Shown piece after piece: positions 3,298 through 10,105 of a DNA stretch of 11,737 bases; the stretch's first letter is position 1; each line of letters starts with the position of its first letter. The notes beneath the pieces are model-generated. The model had not been told where the DNA came from. It made no database searches and saw only the letters and a list, made by a program, of their open reading frames with translations. The translations under genes were made by a program, and so were the position numbers. The DNA is from a bacterium (GTDB lineage: Bacteria; Vulcanimicrobiota; CADAWZ01): NCBI GenBank assembly GCA_024409025.1, contig JAKSUM010000012.1, positions 1 to 11,737 of the forward strand. The letters run 5' to 3'.

Positions 3298-4128
3298 ATG
3301 CTTAATATAGGGTGCCATCTCTCCTCTTCAGGAGGTTTTTGCGAAATGGGTAAAAGGGCTCTTTCCATAGATGCCGGCACATTCGCTTGTTTTTTGAGAA
3401 ATCCAAGGGGAGGGGATGCAAAGCCTGTCAAGGCTGATGACATTGAAAGCTTCATGATTATGAAGAAAGAGCATTCCTTTGGTCCTCTTGTTGCCCATTC
3501 CCCTTATACTATGAATGCCTGCTCTGCCGACCCGTCAATAAGGGATTTTGCCCTGAGGGTTATGAAGGAGGATATTCGGATTATGGATTTGATTCCAGGA
3601 AATTATTATAATTTCCATCCGGGATCACATGTTAAGCAGGGAGTTGATATCGGAATCGGCTTTATTGCCGGAATGCTTAATGATGCTCTTTTTGATGAGC
3701 AGAGCACTATAGTCCTTCTTGAAACAATGTCAGGAAAGGGAAGCGAGATTGGCAGAAGCTTTGAGGAGCTCAGGAGGATAATTGATTCCGTTAATCTGAA
3801 AAACAAGATAGGCGTATGCTTTGACACATGCCATGTCTGGGATGCCGGATATGATATTGTTGGAAATCTTGACGGGGTTCTTGATGAATTTGACAGGGTT
3901 ATTGGTATTGAATATCTGAAGGCTGTGCATCTTAATGACAGCATGAATACCTGTGGTTCACATAAGGACAGGCATGCCAAGATAGGCGAGGGGCATATAG
4001 GCCTTGAAGCTATTGTCAGGACCGTATGTCATCCGGCTCTTAAAAATCTGCCTTTCATTCTTGAGACTCCGAATGACATGGATGGCTATGCATCGGAGAT
4101 AAGGCTTCTTAAATCACGCTCTATTTGA
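3298..4128 (+). CDS. nfo: Endonuclease IV (AP endonuclease, EC 3.1.21.2)
   Basis: A 276-residue TIM-barrel AP endonuclease that cuts the backbone 5' of abasic sites in base excision repair. All nine metal ligands of the trinuclear zinc site are found at positions close to those of the E. coli enzyme: H67 (VAHSPY), H107 (NFHPGSH), E142 (LLETMSGKG), D176 and H179 (CFDTCHVWDAGYD), H211 (AVHLNDS), D224 and H226 (KDRHAKIGEGHIG) and E256 (ILETPND). It is therefore expected to be active. GAAAGGA lies eight bases before the ATG. It follows the antiporter by 23 bp and its last 8 bp overlap the end of the convergent acetyl-CoA-synthase-like gene. Confidence 0.96.
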   Translation: MLNIGCHLSSSGGFCEMGKRALSIDAGTFACFLRNPRGGDAKPVKADDIESFMIMKKEHSFGPLVAHSPYTMNACSADPSIRDFALRVMKEDIRIMDLIPGNYYNFHPGSHVKQGVDIGIGFIAGMLNDALFDEQSTIVLLETMSGKGSEIGRSFEELRRIIDSVNLKNKIGVCFDTCHVWDAGYDIVGNLDGVLDEFDRVIGIEYLKAVHLNDSMNTCGSHKDRHAKIGEGHIGLEAIVRTVCHPALKNLPFILETPNDMDGYASEIRLLKSRSI

Positions 4129-4954
4129 TATTCTTTGATATTCTTGCTCTTCCTGTGATCCCCGGAATCTGGCCACGTCCTATGCAGATGCTTATCGCTT
4201 CATGGTATGAAATACCCATGAATTCCGATTCTTGGTCTTTCCTGTCTATGGCAAGCTCCGTTTCGCCATCGGATATTACGGCTGTTTCAGCGAGGGGGCT
4301 CATTGGCATAGGAAAATCTGTAATTGAATTTAGTGTTATTCTTTTTATTCGGCCGAAGGTAAGCTCTTCGGCTGTTTCATTTATCTCCTTCCATTCACCC
4401 TTTTCTTTGTCCAATTCATGGATTAGCTTTGTTTTTCTGCAGGGACCGTTGGGGCTCAGGCCTATCATAAGCTCTGCATCTGATGCGCTCATGCTTCCGC
4501 ATTGTCCTTGTGAGGAATCCGTAATTACGCATATGTGATGCATTGAAAGGTTCTGGCACATGGAGCAGAAATATGCGCATCCTGTTTCTGCAGAATTTTC
4601 GCTGTGTTCTTTGGGCATTTCCGAAGAGAATGATATTTTTATTTTTATATCGGATGATCTGCAGAATTTTCGCAGCTCTTCCTCAACCTTTTTCGCATAC
4701 GACTCTATCTCTTCTGCTGTTCCGATCTCTGATTCCGGAAAATCCATGCTTATGTTTTTTTCTTTGCGCAGGAATGATATTATTTTCTTTCTTAGAGCGC
4801 TTTCATATTTTGTTTCAAGGCATAGGGAGAAGGCGTCGTATACTGCGGTAACCGCTTCCCCTTCAAGCTTTGGAGGTAATTTCGGATTTATTCTTGCATC
4901 TATAAAAAAAGAAGCCTTTCCTGAGGGGACGGCTTCCATTATATTGTCCGGCAT
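4121..4954 (-). CDS. Acetyl-CoA synthase (CODH/ACS beta) A-cluster-domain-like protein lacking the CGC nickel motif
   Basis: A 277-residue protein whose C-terminal half resembles the A-cluster domain of acetyl-CoA synthase (AcsB/CdhC). It carries C130-x2-C133-x8-C142-x9-C152, the spacing of the four [4Fe-4S] cysteines of the Moorella enzyme, within CSMCQNLSMHHICVITDS, which mirrors the family's CQSFAPNHVCVIT. Further similarity lies in LSPNGPC, DKEKGEWKEINE (family: GIWKSVND) and GRGQIPGITG near the end (family: GGGTQTPGFMGIG). The Cys-Gly-Cys that holds the distal nickel should fall 67 residues after the fourth cysteine; S219-P220-L221 stands there instead. A complete A cluster is thus not possible and acetyl-CoA synthesis is unlikely. 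Residues 1-115 have no family I recognise. The start is uncertain: ATG at 4954 lies one base past the upstream stop, while an in-frame ATG at 4999 would add 15 residues overlapping the upstream frame. Neither has a strong ribosome site. No other CODH/ACS gene is in view. Confidence 0.8.
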   Translation of the reverse strand: MPDNIMEAVPSGKASFFIDARINPKLPPKLEGEAVTAVYDAFSLCLETKYESALRKKIISFLRKEKNISMDFPESEIGTAEEIESYAKKVEEELRKFCRSSDIKIKISFSSEMPKEHSENSAETGCAYFCSMCQNLSMHHICVITDSSQGQCGSMSASDAELMIGLSPNGPCRKTKLIHELDKEKGEWKEINETAEELTFGRIKRITLNSITDFPMPMSPLAETAVISDGETELAIDRKDQESEFMGISYHEAISICIGRGQIPGITGRARISKNIK

Positions 4955-4955
4955 T

Positions 4956-5437
4956 TTATTTGCTAAAGCTTTCTGCTGCCTTCTGAAATTCGGGGGCATA
5001 TTTGCCCATCAGGCTTTTAGAGGTTGCGCATGTCATTATGTACATGCTGTTGTCTGCAATTATTCCATACTGGCAGAATTGGGCTTTGCCTTTATTCATG
5101 GAGTATTTGAGCACGAATGCCGGGTAGTCATTTATTTTTATTGTTTTTGATTCGGTAACGTCAAATCTGCTCATTTTGAGCTGCTTTGTTATGACTCCCT
5201 CTGCTTGTCTATATCTGCGCTTTTTTTGTCCAGCTTCTGGCTTGCAAGAGTTATATTGCTTTTTTTGTCGGAATAAGTGGCGCTCCCTGGATATGACAGG
5301 TATTTGTCGTTCTGGTATTCTTTTGATAAGACAATCTTATATCCGTTTGCTATCTGTATTTCCTGCTGCGCATATGCCGGAAGCGCAAGTATTATGAATG
5401 CTGCTGCTAAAATGGCAGTTATTATTGCTCTTTTCAT
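4956..5437 (-). pseudogene. Small exported protein, PsbP/DcrB-like in appearance, broken by one frameshift
   Basis: Two adjacent minus-strand frames read as one protein of about 160 residues. The first (5437-5189) begins with a clear signal peptide, MKRAIITAILAAAFIILALPAYA followed by QQE, preceded by AAAGGAC at good spacing. It stops after DKKSADIDKQRES. The second frame continues from near 5200 to 4956 (ITKQLKMSRFDVTESK, then INDYPAFVLKYSM and a C-terminal QKAAESFSK). Adding one base in the GGG run (plus-strand CCC at 5197-5199) joins them as DKQRGVITKQLK. An alternative is slippage at the A7 run within codons for DKK. The combined layout of a signal peptide, a short beta-rich body with YPAF and a terminal SF resembles small PsbP/DcrB-type periplasmic proteins; this is a weak family match. 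It may be a pseudogene, a sequencing error or a recoded gene. The 3' end abuts the acetyl-CoA-synthase-like gene. Confidence 0.65.
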
Positions 5438-5591: not shown

Positions 5592-6206
5592 ATGAGCAGG
5601 GATAATGAATTTTTTGAACATGAGGAGCCTGAGGTTTGCTCTGTCGGAAGAAGCGGAGACTATATTTTCAAGACATTATGTCTTATTCAGGCTGGAGTGC
5701 TTGCTGTCGCCGTAATATGGGGGCTTTTCCGAAAGGTTTATTTTTGGAATAATGTCAGGCTTGATTCGGGATTGCTTTGGGGAGTTGCCGCTGCTATTTT
5801 CCTTTCAGTATGCTCTTGCTTAATGTATGCTTTCAGAAAGCATATTCCTTTTATGAATTATGATTGGATAATGGAAGAGTGCTATAAGCCGATGTTCGGC
5901 AGGCTGTCGCTGGCACAGATAGCGGTTGCGTCTGTTCTTTCAGGAGTTTGCGAGGAGGCTTTGTTCAGAGGCGTTATGATGCAGGAATGGGGCGCTTTTG
6001 CCTCATCCGTTATATTTGGCGCATGTCACTTAGGTGACAAGAGGCTTATTGCTTCTTCTGTATGGATAGCAGCTGCCGGATATGGTTTTTCCTTAATATT
6101 CGGTCATACGGGAAATCTTGGCGCATGCATGATTGCGCATTGCATGAATAATTTTATTTCCTTCCTATTTGTAATGCGTCTTTCCGGAAGGCTTAGGCTT
6201 CTTTAA
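5592..6206 (+). CDS. CPBP-family intramembrane glutamic endopeptidase
   Basis: A 204-residue integral membrane protein of the CPBP (Rce1/CAAX-like, ABI) family. The family signatures are all present: E121-E122-x3-R126 (CEEALFRGV), F142-x3-H146 (FGACH) and H183-x3-N187 (HCMNN), which together form the intramembrane active site. Hydrophobic segments lie at about 27-45, 60-80, 107-120, 133-147, 152-170 and 178-195. The first 20 residues are acidic and probably cytoplasmic. AGGGG sits six bases before the ATG. The gene is divergent from the broken exported-protein gene, and a zinc-ribbon/FHA gene follows in the same direction after about 128 bp. The bacterial substrate cannot be inferred; relatives act in bacteriocin immunity, protein maturation or membrane proteolysis. 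Confidence 0.88.
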   Translation: MSRDNEFFEHEEPEVCSVGRSGDYIFKTLCLIQAGVLAVAVIWGLFRKVYFWNNVRLDSGLLWGVAAAIFLSVCSCLMYAFRKHIPFMNYDWIMEECYKPMFGRLSLAQIAVASVLSGVCEEALFRGVMMQEWGAFASSVIFGACHLGDKRLIASSVWIAAAGYGFSLIFGHTGNLGACMIAHCMNNFISFLFVMRLSGRLRLL

Positions 6207-6334
6207 TTTTTTTCAAGGTGAAGGATTTTTTTTGAATAGGATTGAATAGTGTAGAATAAACAAAATGTTGTAATTCTTGCGGGGACGCATCCTTGTTTTC
6301 GGAGCGGTTCCGCATTGCGGAGGGTATGCTTATT

Positions 6335-6775
6335 ATGATAAAATGTCCTTTCTGCGGCGCTGAAAATCAGGAAGGCTCGGCTTATTGCGAAGACTGTGGG
6401 GAAAAGCTGTTTGTACAGAACGGTGCAGAGCCTGCTGCCGTTTCTGCGGTTCCTGCCGGCGGCATTGTCGCGCAGCTTACTATTGACGGAATGAATTTTC
6501 CTCTTTCAAGAGCCTGTAATAGCATAGGAAGAAGAAGCCCGGCTGACGGAGTTTATCCTGACATAGATCTTACTGATTTCGATCTTGATTCATACATATC
6601 TCGCAGACATGCCCAGATAATAAGAGAAGGCGATGATTACTTCTTTGAAGAGCTCGGCAGCTCGAACGGAAGCTATGTTAATGGAGAATTTATGGTAAGA
6701 GGCACGCGCTGCCCTCTGAAGAACGGAGATATAATCAAGCTGGGAAAAACCGAGGTTATTTTTGTGATTATGTAA
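6335..6775 (+). CDS. Zinc-ribbon plus FHA domain protein
   Basis: A 146-residue cytoplasmic protein. Residues 1-25 are a zinc ribbon with C4-x2-C7 and C18-x2-C21. After an Ala/Pro-rich linker, residues 47-146 form a forkhead-associated domain with the phosphopeptide-contact motifs G65-R66, S89-R-R-H92 and GSSNG at 108-112, then N116-G117. All are intact, so phosphothreonine binding is expected. I chose the ATG at 6335 because the zinc ribbon starts there (MIKCPFCG) and GGAGGG at 6319-6324 is ten bases upstream. An ATG at 6326 is too close to that site, and a TTG at 6293 adds residues unlike the family. FHA proteins usually read out Ser/Thr kinase signalling, but no kinase or phosphatase is adjacent. 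A strong terminator follows the stop. Confidence 0.88.
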   Translation: MIKCPFCGAENQEGSAYCEDCGEKLFVQNGAEPAAVSAVPAGGIVAQLTIDGMNFPLSRACNSIGRRSPADGVYPDIDLTDFDLDSYISRRHAQIIREGDDYFFEELGSSNGSYVNGEFMVRGTRCPLKNGDIIKLGKTEVIFVIM

Positions 6776-8120: not shown

Positions 8121-9050
8121 ATGGAAATCAAATCTGTTGACGATATCCTTAAATTCGCTTCAGACTGCCCTTCGGCAAGAATGGCGGTTGCCGCTCCGGA
8201 AGACGATGCTTCTCTTGAGGCCGTTAAGACAGCTGTTGAAAGAGGAATTGTTACAGCTGTCTTTACTGGCTGCAGGCATAAGATAGAAGCGGCAATGAAG
8301 AGGCTTGGTATGACGTTTGAAAATATCGATATTGTCGACGCTGACGGATATGAGGACGCCTCTTCAAAAGCCGTTTCTCTTGTTAAAAACGGCGATGCCC
8401 AATTACTTATGAAGGGTACTGTGCATACGGATCAGATTTTAAGGGCTGTTCTTGACAAGAATAACGGTCTTAGGACTGGAGCTCTGCTTAGCCATGCCCT
8501 TATATTTAACCATGAAAAGCTTTCAAAGCCGGTTGTTCTGACTGATGCTGCGATGAATATAGCTCCCGATCTTTCCCAGAAGGTAGGCATCCTGAAAAAT
8601 GCGGCTCATCTTATGAAAGTAGTGTTTGGAAAGGAAACATGTAAGGCGGCGATACTTGCAGCTCTTGAGACTGTCAATCCTAAGATGCAGGCTACTCTTG
8701 ATGCCGCATATATATCAAAAATGTCCCAGCGGGGACAGATTCCTGGAGTAATTGCTGACGGGCCTCTTGCTCTTGACAATGCTCTTTTCGCTGAGGCTGC
8801 CAGAACGAAAGGTATAGATTCTCCTGTGGCTGGAGATGCCGATATTCTTCTTGTTCCGTTTATTGAATGCGGCAATGTTCTTTATAAGTCTCTTACGCTT
8901 CTTGCTGGGATAAATGCCGCCGGAGTTATATGCGGAGCGGCTGCACCCGTTGTTCTGACATCGAGAGCTGACGATATGCGCCTTAAGCTTAATTCCATTG
9001 CTTTGGGTGCGGCTGCCGCCGACAGAGGCTACGGGAAAATAAGATCATGA
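8121..9050 (+). CDS. Phosphate butyryltransferase / phosphate acetyltransferase family enzyme
   Basis: A 309-residue member of the PTA_PTB family, which interconverts acyl-CoA plus phosphate and acyl-phosphate plus CoA in the cytoplasm. Landmarks are MSQRGQIPGVIADGPLALDN from residue 201, GDADILLVP from 238 (followed by IECGNVLYKSL) and a C-terminal VVLTSRADD then LNSIALG. These match phosphotransbutyrylases of about 300 residues better than the longer or shorter Pta types, so butyryl-CoA or a related short branched acyl-CoA is the likely substrate. Two ATGs are in tandem; GGGGA is only two bases before 8118 but five before 8121, so I prefer 8121. No butyrate or acetate kinase gene is adjacent. 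The stop overlaps the next start as ATGA, so the pair is probably translationally coupled. Confidence 0.9.
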   Translation: MEIKSVDDILKFASDCPSARMAVAAPEDDASLEAVKTAVERGIVTAVFTGCRHKIEAAMKRLGMTFENIDIVDADGYEDASSKAVSLVKNGDAQLLMKGTVHTDQILRAVLDKNNGLRTGALLSHALIFNHEKLSKPVVLTDAAMNIAPDLSQKVGILKNAAHLMKVVFGKETCKAAILAALETVNPKMQATLDAAYISKMSQRGQIPGVIADGPLALDNALFAEAARTKGIDSPVAGDADILLVPFIECGNVLYKSLTLLAGINAAGVICGAAAPVVLTSRADDMRLKLNSIALGAAAADRGYGKIRS

Positions 9051-10105
9051 ATAATTCCGTCTTATATATCAAGGGCTGTGTAAAAAACGGGTTTGGAGCC
9101 GTTGGCTGCATAATATGCGACGCATGGGGAAGGGTCGTCAGAAAAGAATCCCTTTTCATAGGCGAATCGGAACCGTCGAGAGTTGACTTTACAGCTCTGC
9201 TCTCAGGTCTCGAGTGCGTTGCTGAAGCCGGATATTCGTCCGTAAAGATAATGACTGATAATGAGGGCCTTGTAAGGGCAATGACAAGACCTTCAAAGAT
9301 GATAAGCCCTGATATAGCTTCGCTTATAAACGATATCAGGGAGGTTGCCGAGGGAATCTCCTTTGAGTTCATGTATGTCCATCCTTCACGGAACAGGGAT
9401 GCTGAGGCTCTCGCTGTTTCCGCCCTTGAAGCAGGTATTAAGGAATTCAGGGAACAGCAGGAGAATGAGGAGAGAAAGAGGGCTGAGTTCAAGGCCAAGG
9501 CAGAGGCGGAAAGGCTTGCTAAAAGGAAGGCCGATAATAAAACGGACTCCTCAAGGCTGGCCGCAGTAGCAGCATTCAGGAGGGCGATGCTATTTGACGA
9601 TATCGCAGCTCCAAGGACAGAACGTAAGAAAAAAATTTCGTCTTCTTCGAAAAATGACGATCTTATCGCTGAAGAGCGTGAGGAAAGACAGATATCCGCT
9701 GGGGGAGTCGTATATAAAAAGGAAGGCGGAAAGATTCTTGTATGCCTTATAAGCAAGAAAAACGGGAGGATATGGGCTTTGCCTAAGGGAAGGGTGCTTC
9801 CTGGCGAAGATCTTCAGGATACCGCCAGAAGGGAAATTGCCGAGGAAACAGGCCACCTTACGCATGTCTCGGATATTCTTGATGAAATATCGTACTATTT
9901 TTATGTGAAAGAGGAAAGCGTTCTTTACCATAAGACCGTTTATTTCTTTCTGCTGCCACTTCTTCAGGAGGATTTCTGTCAGCCTGACGGAGAGGCGGAC
10001 AGCATTGTATGGATGCCTCCGGGAGATGCATACAAGAAGCTTACATATATAAACGAAAAAGAGGTTATGAAGAAGGCTCAGAAAATATTTTCTCTTCTTA
10101 GATAA
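9047..10105 (+). CDS. Fusion of a degenerate RNase H-like domain and a Nudix hydrolase
   Basis: A 352-residue cytoplasmic protein with three parts. Residues 1-130 have the RNase HI pattern, but the catalytic D-E-D-D set reads K9 (IKG for VDG), D47 (RVDFTALLSGLE), D71 (MTDNEG) and E120 (RDAEALA). The first Asp is lost, so nuclease activity is doubtful. Residues 131-205 are a highly charged Glu/Lys/Arg/Ala helix, probably a coiled coil or linker. Residues 212-352 are a Nudix domain starting ISAGGVVYK, with a Nudix box at 248-270: G248, x5, E254, x7, R262-E263, then E266-E267 and G269. All metal-binding glutamates are intact. The domain looks like the MutT/Ap4A-hydrolase group, which removes nucleoside diphosphates linked to another moiety; the substrate is unknown. 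The start overlaps the phosphotransbutyrylase stop by four bases, and a terminator follows directly. Confidence 0.85.
   Translation: MNNSVLYIKGCVKNGFGAVGCIICDAWGRVVRKESLFIGESEPSRVDFTALLSGLECVAEAGYSSVKIMTDNEGLVRAMTRPSKMISPDIASLINDIREVAEGISFEFMYVHPSRNRDAEALAVSALEAGIKEFREQQENEERKRAEFKAKAEAERLAKRKADNKTDSSRLAAVAAFRRAMLFDDIAAPRTERKKKISSSSKNDDLIAEEREERQISAGGVVYKKEGGKILVCLISKKNGRIWALPKGRVLPGEDLQDTARREIAEETGHLTHVSDILDEISYYFYVKEESVLYHKTVYFFLLPLLQEDFCQPDGEADSIVWMPPGDAYKKLTYINEKEVMKKAQKIFSLLR

Follow-up and report, generated by a model that had tools for sequence, protein, structure and literature searches.

Acetyl-CoA synthase (ACS) is part of a carbon-fixation route that is regarded as the oldest and is defined by its nickel site, for which both cysteines of a Cys-Gly-Cys (CGC) motif in the A-cluster are required to bind two nickel ions. 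Two forms are relevant here, bacterial AcsB (Moorella, Carboxydothermus, C. autoethanogenum) and archaeal CdhC (ACDS beta; Methanosarcina), which has no N-terminal A1 domain and shows the A2-A3 domain order, the four cluster cysteines, CGC and Phe195. The corresponding residue of the Moorella enzyme, Phe512, belongs to the CO alcove according to PMC11321310 and PMC11474084. The nearest described situation to the one reported below is the incomplete Wood-Ljungdahl pathway of Dehalococcoides mccartyi (PMC7005905), which has AcsCD and an ACS-family protein and no carbon monoxide dehydrogenase (CODH); in that organism acetyl-CoA cleavage is the activity ascribed to AcsB, a core-MetE is encoded, and neither AcsE nor MetF occurs. 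We describe a gene at 4121-4954 (minus strand) of contig JAKSUM010000012.1 from a bacterium of the Vulcanimicrobiota (GCA_024409025.1), analysed as a stretch of 11,737 nucleotides (the window), which encodes an ACS-derived protein without the CGC motif and belongs to a family in which Ser-Pro-Leu is fixed in its place.

The gene and the residues that carry the comparison were the following (residue numbers refer to the window protein, P0001):
4121..4954, minus strand: gene for the ACS-derived protein without the nickel-binding CGC, identified from Pfam, NCBIfam and solved-chain matches and from homologues in genomes G001, G002 and G003
4499..4567, minus strand: four cluster-type cysteines C130, C133, C142 and C152, from the translation and a pattern check
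4292..4300, minus strand: Ser219-Pro220-Leu221, gapless in the columns of Cys595-Gly596-Cys597
4547..4549, minus strand: Leu136, aligned with Moorella Phe512; every family row has Leu here and the ACS/CdhC rows have Phe
4439..4441, minus strand: Cys172 of a Gly-Pro-Cys motif, family-invariant; both of the CGC-bearing ACS rows in the comparison have Asn

The open frame at 4121-4999 on the minus strand contains the stretch 4292-4567, whose two ends are exactly C130, the first cluster cysteine (4565-4567), and the last residue of Ser-Pro-Leu (Leu221, 4292-4294). P0001 has 277 amino acids when read from the ATG at 4954, close to the length of about 280 residues given in a first-pass annotation of this DNA; read from a second in-frame ATG, at 4999, it would have 292. 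The start at 4954, which is also that of the protein collection's own prediction, lies 1 base after the upstream stop and fits this close spacing, a gap that measures 4 bases in loci L004 and L005 and 18 in L003. P0001 matched the ACS A-cluster domain PF19436 with an E-value of 5.3e-22 and 79 bits, far above the cut-off of 25, and the annotated A-cluster-like domain was thereby borne out; its three homologues reached 117-143 bits. NCBIfam models for ACS matched at 1.8e-20 at best and the solved AcsB chain 6ytt at 1.4e-18. A chance match is excluded. P0001 missed the full-length equivalog level, with 72.7 bits against 800 for NF040764 and 56.6 against 356 for cdhC. A zinc-finger reading was rejected, the RecR-type PF02132 scoring 16.1 bits under a cut-off of 22. 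The ancestry of the family, derived from the ACS family or its sister, is solid.

Homologues were searched for among 98 related genomes, including that of the window (G000), and in 149 genomes of the phylum by profile, and both searches returned the same five genomes. G001, G002 and G003 belong to the same taxonomic family as G000, represent two further genera, and encode copies 39-42% identical to the window protein. The more distant match in G008 was a true AcsB of 725 amino acids with CGC present. Each of G000-G003 held a single ACS-family match, and a hidden canonical ACS elsewhere in these genomes was rejected on that ground. A search of 5.8 billion proteins with alignment A1, which needs shared exact words and may miss remote relatives, gave 11 matches: the window's own protein, six family members, two fragments or chimeras (P0009 and P0010) and two CdhC-type proteins. 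In P0009 (249 amino acids) a PadR-type N terminus is followed by the latter half of the ACS-derived family protein, which looks like a chimeric assembly. In the same database the window protein alone retrieved itself and P0002, and the G001 copy alone only itself (P0012); a scan of genome contigs confirmed 3 of 35 matched stretches, which were the same three sister genomes.

The four cysteines were invariant in alignments A1 and A2 and follow the annotated spacing (CxxC-x8-C-x9-C), Ser219 stands 67 residues past C152 as had been noted, and Ser-Pro-Leu replaces CGC in the same three columns with no gap. Ser-Pro-Leu, the absence of CGC and Leu at the Phe512 position were shared by all ten distinct family sequences spanning both motifs, namely the window, the three sister genomes (three genera in total) and database proteins P0003-P0008, among which the G003 copy and P0004, and the G002 copy and P0003, are near-identical pairs. 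CGC, whose return in homologues had been named as a test, was thus restored in none of them, and a local mutation or decay of the motif in one genome is ruled out. Ser, Pro and Leu were each invariant in 8/8 aligned family rows, six of which form one close group, so that the independent weight is that of about three lineages. Of 147 core positions 53 were invariant in the family, and 22 of these were also found in both CGC-bearing ACS rows. Judged by the nickel ligands that define the enzyme, the protein is not an acetyl-CoA synthase; from the ligand residues we infer that in the family protein the cluster is present and nickel absent. The fixation of a new motif is our argument for a new function.

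In a small tree with three outgroup rows only, the split between the family and the AcsB and CdhC rows was supported at 100/100. A Ka/Ks of 0.18 over 303 codons was obtained between the copies of G003 and G002, and this sister pair is under purifying selection. A nickel-free ACS paralog was not described in the open-access literature that we searched, a limited search. Taken with the profile match and the constant lack of CGC, this supports the earlier suggestion of an undescribed ACS paralog family with a role other than acetyl-CoA synthesis. Electron transfer, cofactor assembly and sensing had been named as possible roles; the genomes point to a partnership with the corrinoid iron-sulfur protein, which the window by itself could not reveal. 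One further protein without CGC, the CdhC-like P0002 (446 amino acids), also keeps the four cysteines; it retains Phe512 and groups with CdhC in the tree, and its CGC stretch is absent by deletion, not by substitution. P0002 rests on a single contig and could be an assembly or gene error.

The columns around Ser-Pro-Leu might alternatively describe a metal site that was rebuilt rather than lost. In most members a Cys directly before Ser-Pro-Leu, the Cys of Gly-Pro-Cys and a cluster cysteine would then bind a different or single metal that accepts the corrinoid methyl group. The preceding column is Cys in 7/8 aligned family rows and the Cys172 column in 8/8, as such a site would need. However, the window itself has Met before Ser-Pro-Leu, the C. 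autoethanogenum enzyme, a true ACS, likewise has Cys at the position of Cys172, and the models fall under a predicted local distance difference test (pLDDT) score of 50 in this loop. We regard a rebuilt site as rather unlikely.

Compared with bacterial AcsB, the family shares the A3 sequence, the four cluster cysteines with a conserved His between them, and a modelled middle-domain fold, and its genomes encode the partner AcsCD; unlike AcsB, it has no CGC, Phe512 or N-terminal CO-tunnel domain, its genomes give no CODH match, and its C terminus is shorter. It resembles CdhC in the missing A1 domain, the A2-A3 order and the four cysteines, and differs in lacking CGC and the Phe195 equivalent, in its length (277-315 amino acids against the 460 positions of the CdhC model) and in scoring lower to CdhC than to bacterial ACS models. 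The N-terminal domain had been annotated as unknown. Its model aligned to the ACS middle (A2) domain, and it models as a shrunken ACS middle domain preceding the A-cluster domain, so that an unrelated domain is not what the model suggests. The losses of CGC, the CO-alcove Phe512, the bacterial CO-tunnel domain and CODH cohere.

No match to the CODH/hybrid-cluster family PF03063 was found in G000-G003, which are 69%, 98%, 97% and 89% complete, respectively; matches in G004 and G008 were a hybrid-cluster protein and a CODH. The corrinoid iron-sulfur protein (PF03599) was over cut-off in all four family genomes. The order AcsD, AcsV-type activator, AcsC was found in G001 and G002, and also on contig C106 of G000, where AcsC is cut by the contig end. 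A short contig of G003 carries AcsC, an activator broken over two frames (L027:467-2132, minus strand; real or an assembly error) and, running off the contig end, an AcsD of which 32 residues from its start are present. At NCBIfam level the AcsC of G001 was over cut-off; one subfamily cut-off for AcsD was narrowly exceeded by the G002 protein and narrowly missed by those of G000 and G001. AcsE was found in G001, G002 and G003, with a score over cut-off for one NCBIfam model, and had no match in G000, a genome 69% complete. The same three genomes encode MetF; FTHFS was found in all four, with G000 holding an end piece of it. In G001 a single contig, C36, holds MetF, the ACS-derived gene and the AcsCD operon at 20.7, 38.3 and 58-62 kb; these do not share one contig in G002 or G003. 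With no CODH match, with AcsC and AcsD in all four genomes and with AcsE and MetF in three, the CO and nickel genes are missing from the family genomes and the methyl-branch genes are kept. The four genomes are close kin, and the co-occurrence does not amount to four independent events. The earlier statement that the gene sits away from any CODH/ACS genes needs a correction, in that the genome keeps genes for ACS partners, namely AcsD, the AcsV-type activator and the contig-cut AcsC; a CODH match was not found in this genome, which is 69% complete. Unlike Dehalococcoides, three of the four family genomes have both AcsE and MetF, core-MetE is unmatched, and the ACS relative lacks CGC.

Across the phylum, PF03599 matched 104 of 149 genomes at E <= 0.001, with 65 over cut-off. 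Strong matches were found in nine genomes (G000-G005, G008, G009 and G012); the other genomes gave weak, incomplete matches, none better than 4e-9, and most of these fall within frames some 1,200 amino acids long, which we took for MetH. The missing ACS in G005 and G009 may be a gap, because these genomes are 62% and 75% complete. A gene named MinD/ParA-type ATPase by NCBIfam adjoins the corrinoid-protein genes in G008, G009 and G005, and is presumably a CooC-like nickel-insertion ATPase; searched by tblastn, the G008 protein was not found in the corresponding operon stretches of G004, G012 or any of the four family genomes. The AcsD-AcsV-AcsC order in a genome with neither CODH nor nickel ACS match was seen at L025:8251-12169, L026:8689-12646 and L028:56-3533, an orphan corrinoid iron-sulfur protein system. 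AcsC, AcsD and AcsV likewise occur in G004 and G012, there without any ACS-family match. G002 also has, some 4-6 kb away from its AcsCD operon, an AAA-type ATPase and three small proteins, noted by eye (L026:16439-18817).

Our preferred reading, put forward tentatively and at somewhat less than even chances, is that the family protein is a nickel-free, ACS-derived [4Fe-4S] partner of the corrinoid iron-sulfur protein. With the CGC gone, the cluster bound by the other four cysteines would be an ordinary [4Fe-4S] one. The protein may dock on AcsCD through its A-cluster face, since AcsCD is the only known partner of that face found in the family genomes, and might relay single electrons to or from the corrinoid, or hold the corrinoid in a given redox state, alongside AcsV. 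Acetyl-CoA would not be made by the known route, because the proximal nickel is required there. Activation is already the task of AcsV, and in G004 and G012 no ACS relative accompanies AcsCD. The part played by the family protein is therefore probably an auxiliary one, or linked to one specific methyl acceptor.

Among candidate acceptor systems, core-MetE was rejected as a methyl outlet, PF01717 being unmatched in 6/6 genomes searched. MetH/BHMT (PF02574) was found in G004 and, as a fragment, in G000, and was without match in G001, G002, G003 and G008. The G000 fragment, of homocysteine S-methyltransferase type, lies at a contig end (L041:3-320, minus strand). The MetY/MetB family PF01053 matched in 9/9 genomes searched, full-length only in G005 and G009; the weak partial matches in the four family genomes we take for other pyridoxal phosphate enzymes. 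As MetE, MetH, BHMT and full-length MetY/MetB were unmatched in G001-G003, these bacteria may import methionine. The same genomes have neither a PF01717 nor a PF02574 match and yet encode MetF, AcsE, AcsC and AcsV-type genes, which is what would be expected if the ACS-derived protein were part of an unrecognised route from corrinoid-bound methyl to homocysteine, a new methionine synthase. For Dehalococcoides, core-MetE has been proposed to take methyl from AcsCD (PMC7005905). Against such a route stand the partial PF01053 matches together with possible methionine import, the PF02574 fragment in the window's own genome, and a homocysteine site that is not recognisable, and we consider it very improbable. 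Acetogenesis without canonical CODH/ACS was set aside as a different case, because PMC7000372, which describes it, reports that no acsBCD homologue was found.

The neighbourhood of the gene comprises the following features:
4956..5437, minus strand: gene for a PsbP-like secreted protein, directly upstream, named from a weak PsbP_2 match of its L005 homologue
5592..6206, plus strand: Rce1-like (CAAX/CPBP) membrane protease (PF02517, E 6.3e-15), the divergent neighbour in 4/4 loci
6293..6775, plus strand: zinc-ribbon and FHA protein (PF00498, E 1e-16), the next neighbour in 4/4 loci

The PsbP_2 match of the L005 homologue was under cut-off (E 2.4e-4). The L005 homologue of the protease matched PF02517 at 1.8e-14; the protease neighbours in L007 and L008, and the FHA/zinc-ribbon homologues in L007, L008 and L009, were recognised by eye from translations. 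The window and L007, L008 and L009 share the gene order FHA/zinc-ribbon, Rce1-like protease, then the divergent PsbP-like and ACS-derived genes, with one additional gene in between in L007. Elsewhere in the window (9047-10105, plus strand), an RNase H-like (RVT_3) and a NUDIX domain are fused in one protein. The gene paired with the ACS-derived gene in all four loci is not a metabolic one; it encodes a PsbP-like protein predicted to be secreted. This might point to a role outside catalysis, in which the protein would act as a redox sensor or regulator and signal the condition of the corrinoid system or of oxygen; Pfam DNA-binding and signalling domains, however, gave no match over cut-off in the window protein or the three homologues, and we judge a sensor improbable.

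Several observations weigh against a corrinoid-protein partner. The pairing with a PsbP-like protein, outside an AcsCD operon, is not explained by it, and AcsCD with AcsV in G004 and G012 means that the corrinoid system can run without the ACS-derived protein. The activators matched AcsV best, at 253-343 bits against a curated cut-off of 800, and the one in G003 is broken. The models reached a mean pLDDT of 66 and 67, with the loop at the lost CGC under 50; 3 of the 11 alignment rows behind them were ACS or CdhC, which favours that fold, and the sequence profile aligned the A3 part only.

The window copy in particular ends earlier than its relatives and lacks their C-terminal GG segment, carries Met at a column that is Cys in the seven other aligned members, and sits on a long branch (0.86) in the tree. 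Its PsbP-like gene, one open frame in L003, L004 and L005, is split into two frames at 5189-5437 and 4956-5174, by either a real frameshift or an assembly error. The C-terminal shortening and this split suggest that the window copy may be degrading. Together with the broken AcsV-type gene of G003, these features would fit a relic, an ACS gene that shrank after the loss of CODH and nickel and is decaying without present function. Decay is not expected to fix a new motif, however, and Ser-Pro-Leu and the 53 core positions are invariant across three genera, the Ka/Ks of the sister pair indicates constraint, and the neighbourhood is alike in 4/4 loci. A relic is therefore unlikely in our view, although it is the rival that we take most seriously.

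One question that follows is what becomes of the methyl group in bacteria that have AcsCD, AcsE and AcsV-type genes and no match to CODH, nickel ACS or core-MetE. A structure of ACS together with the corrinoid protein does not exist, as PMC11474084 states, and such a complex could become easier to capture with a small partner that has no CO-side domain. A conserved relative with a fixed motif in place of the nickel ligands is a natural experiment that sets what the protein contributes to its cluster and its corrinoid partner apart from the contribution of nickel.
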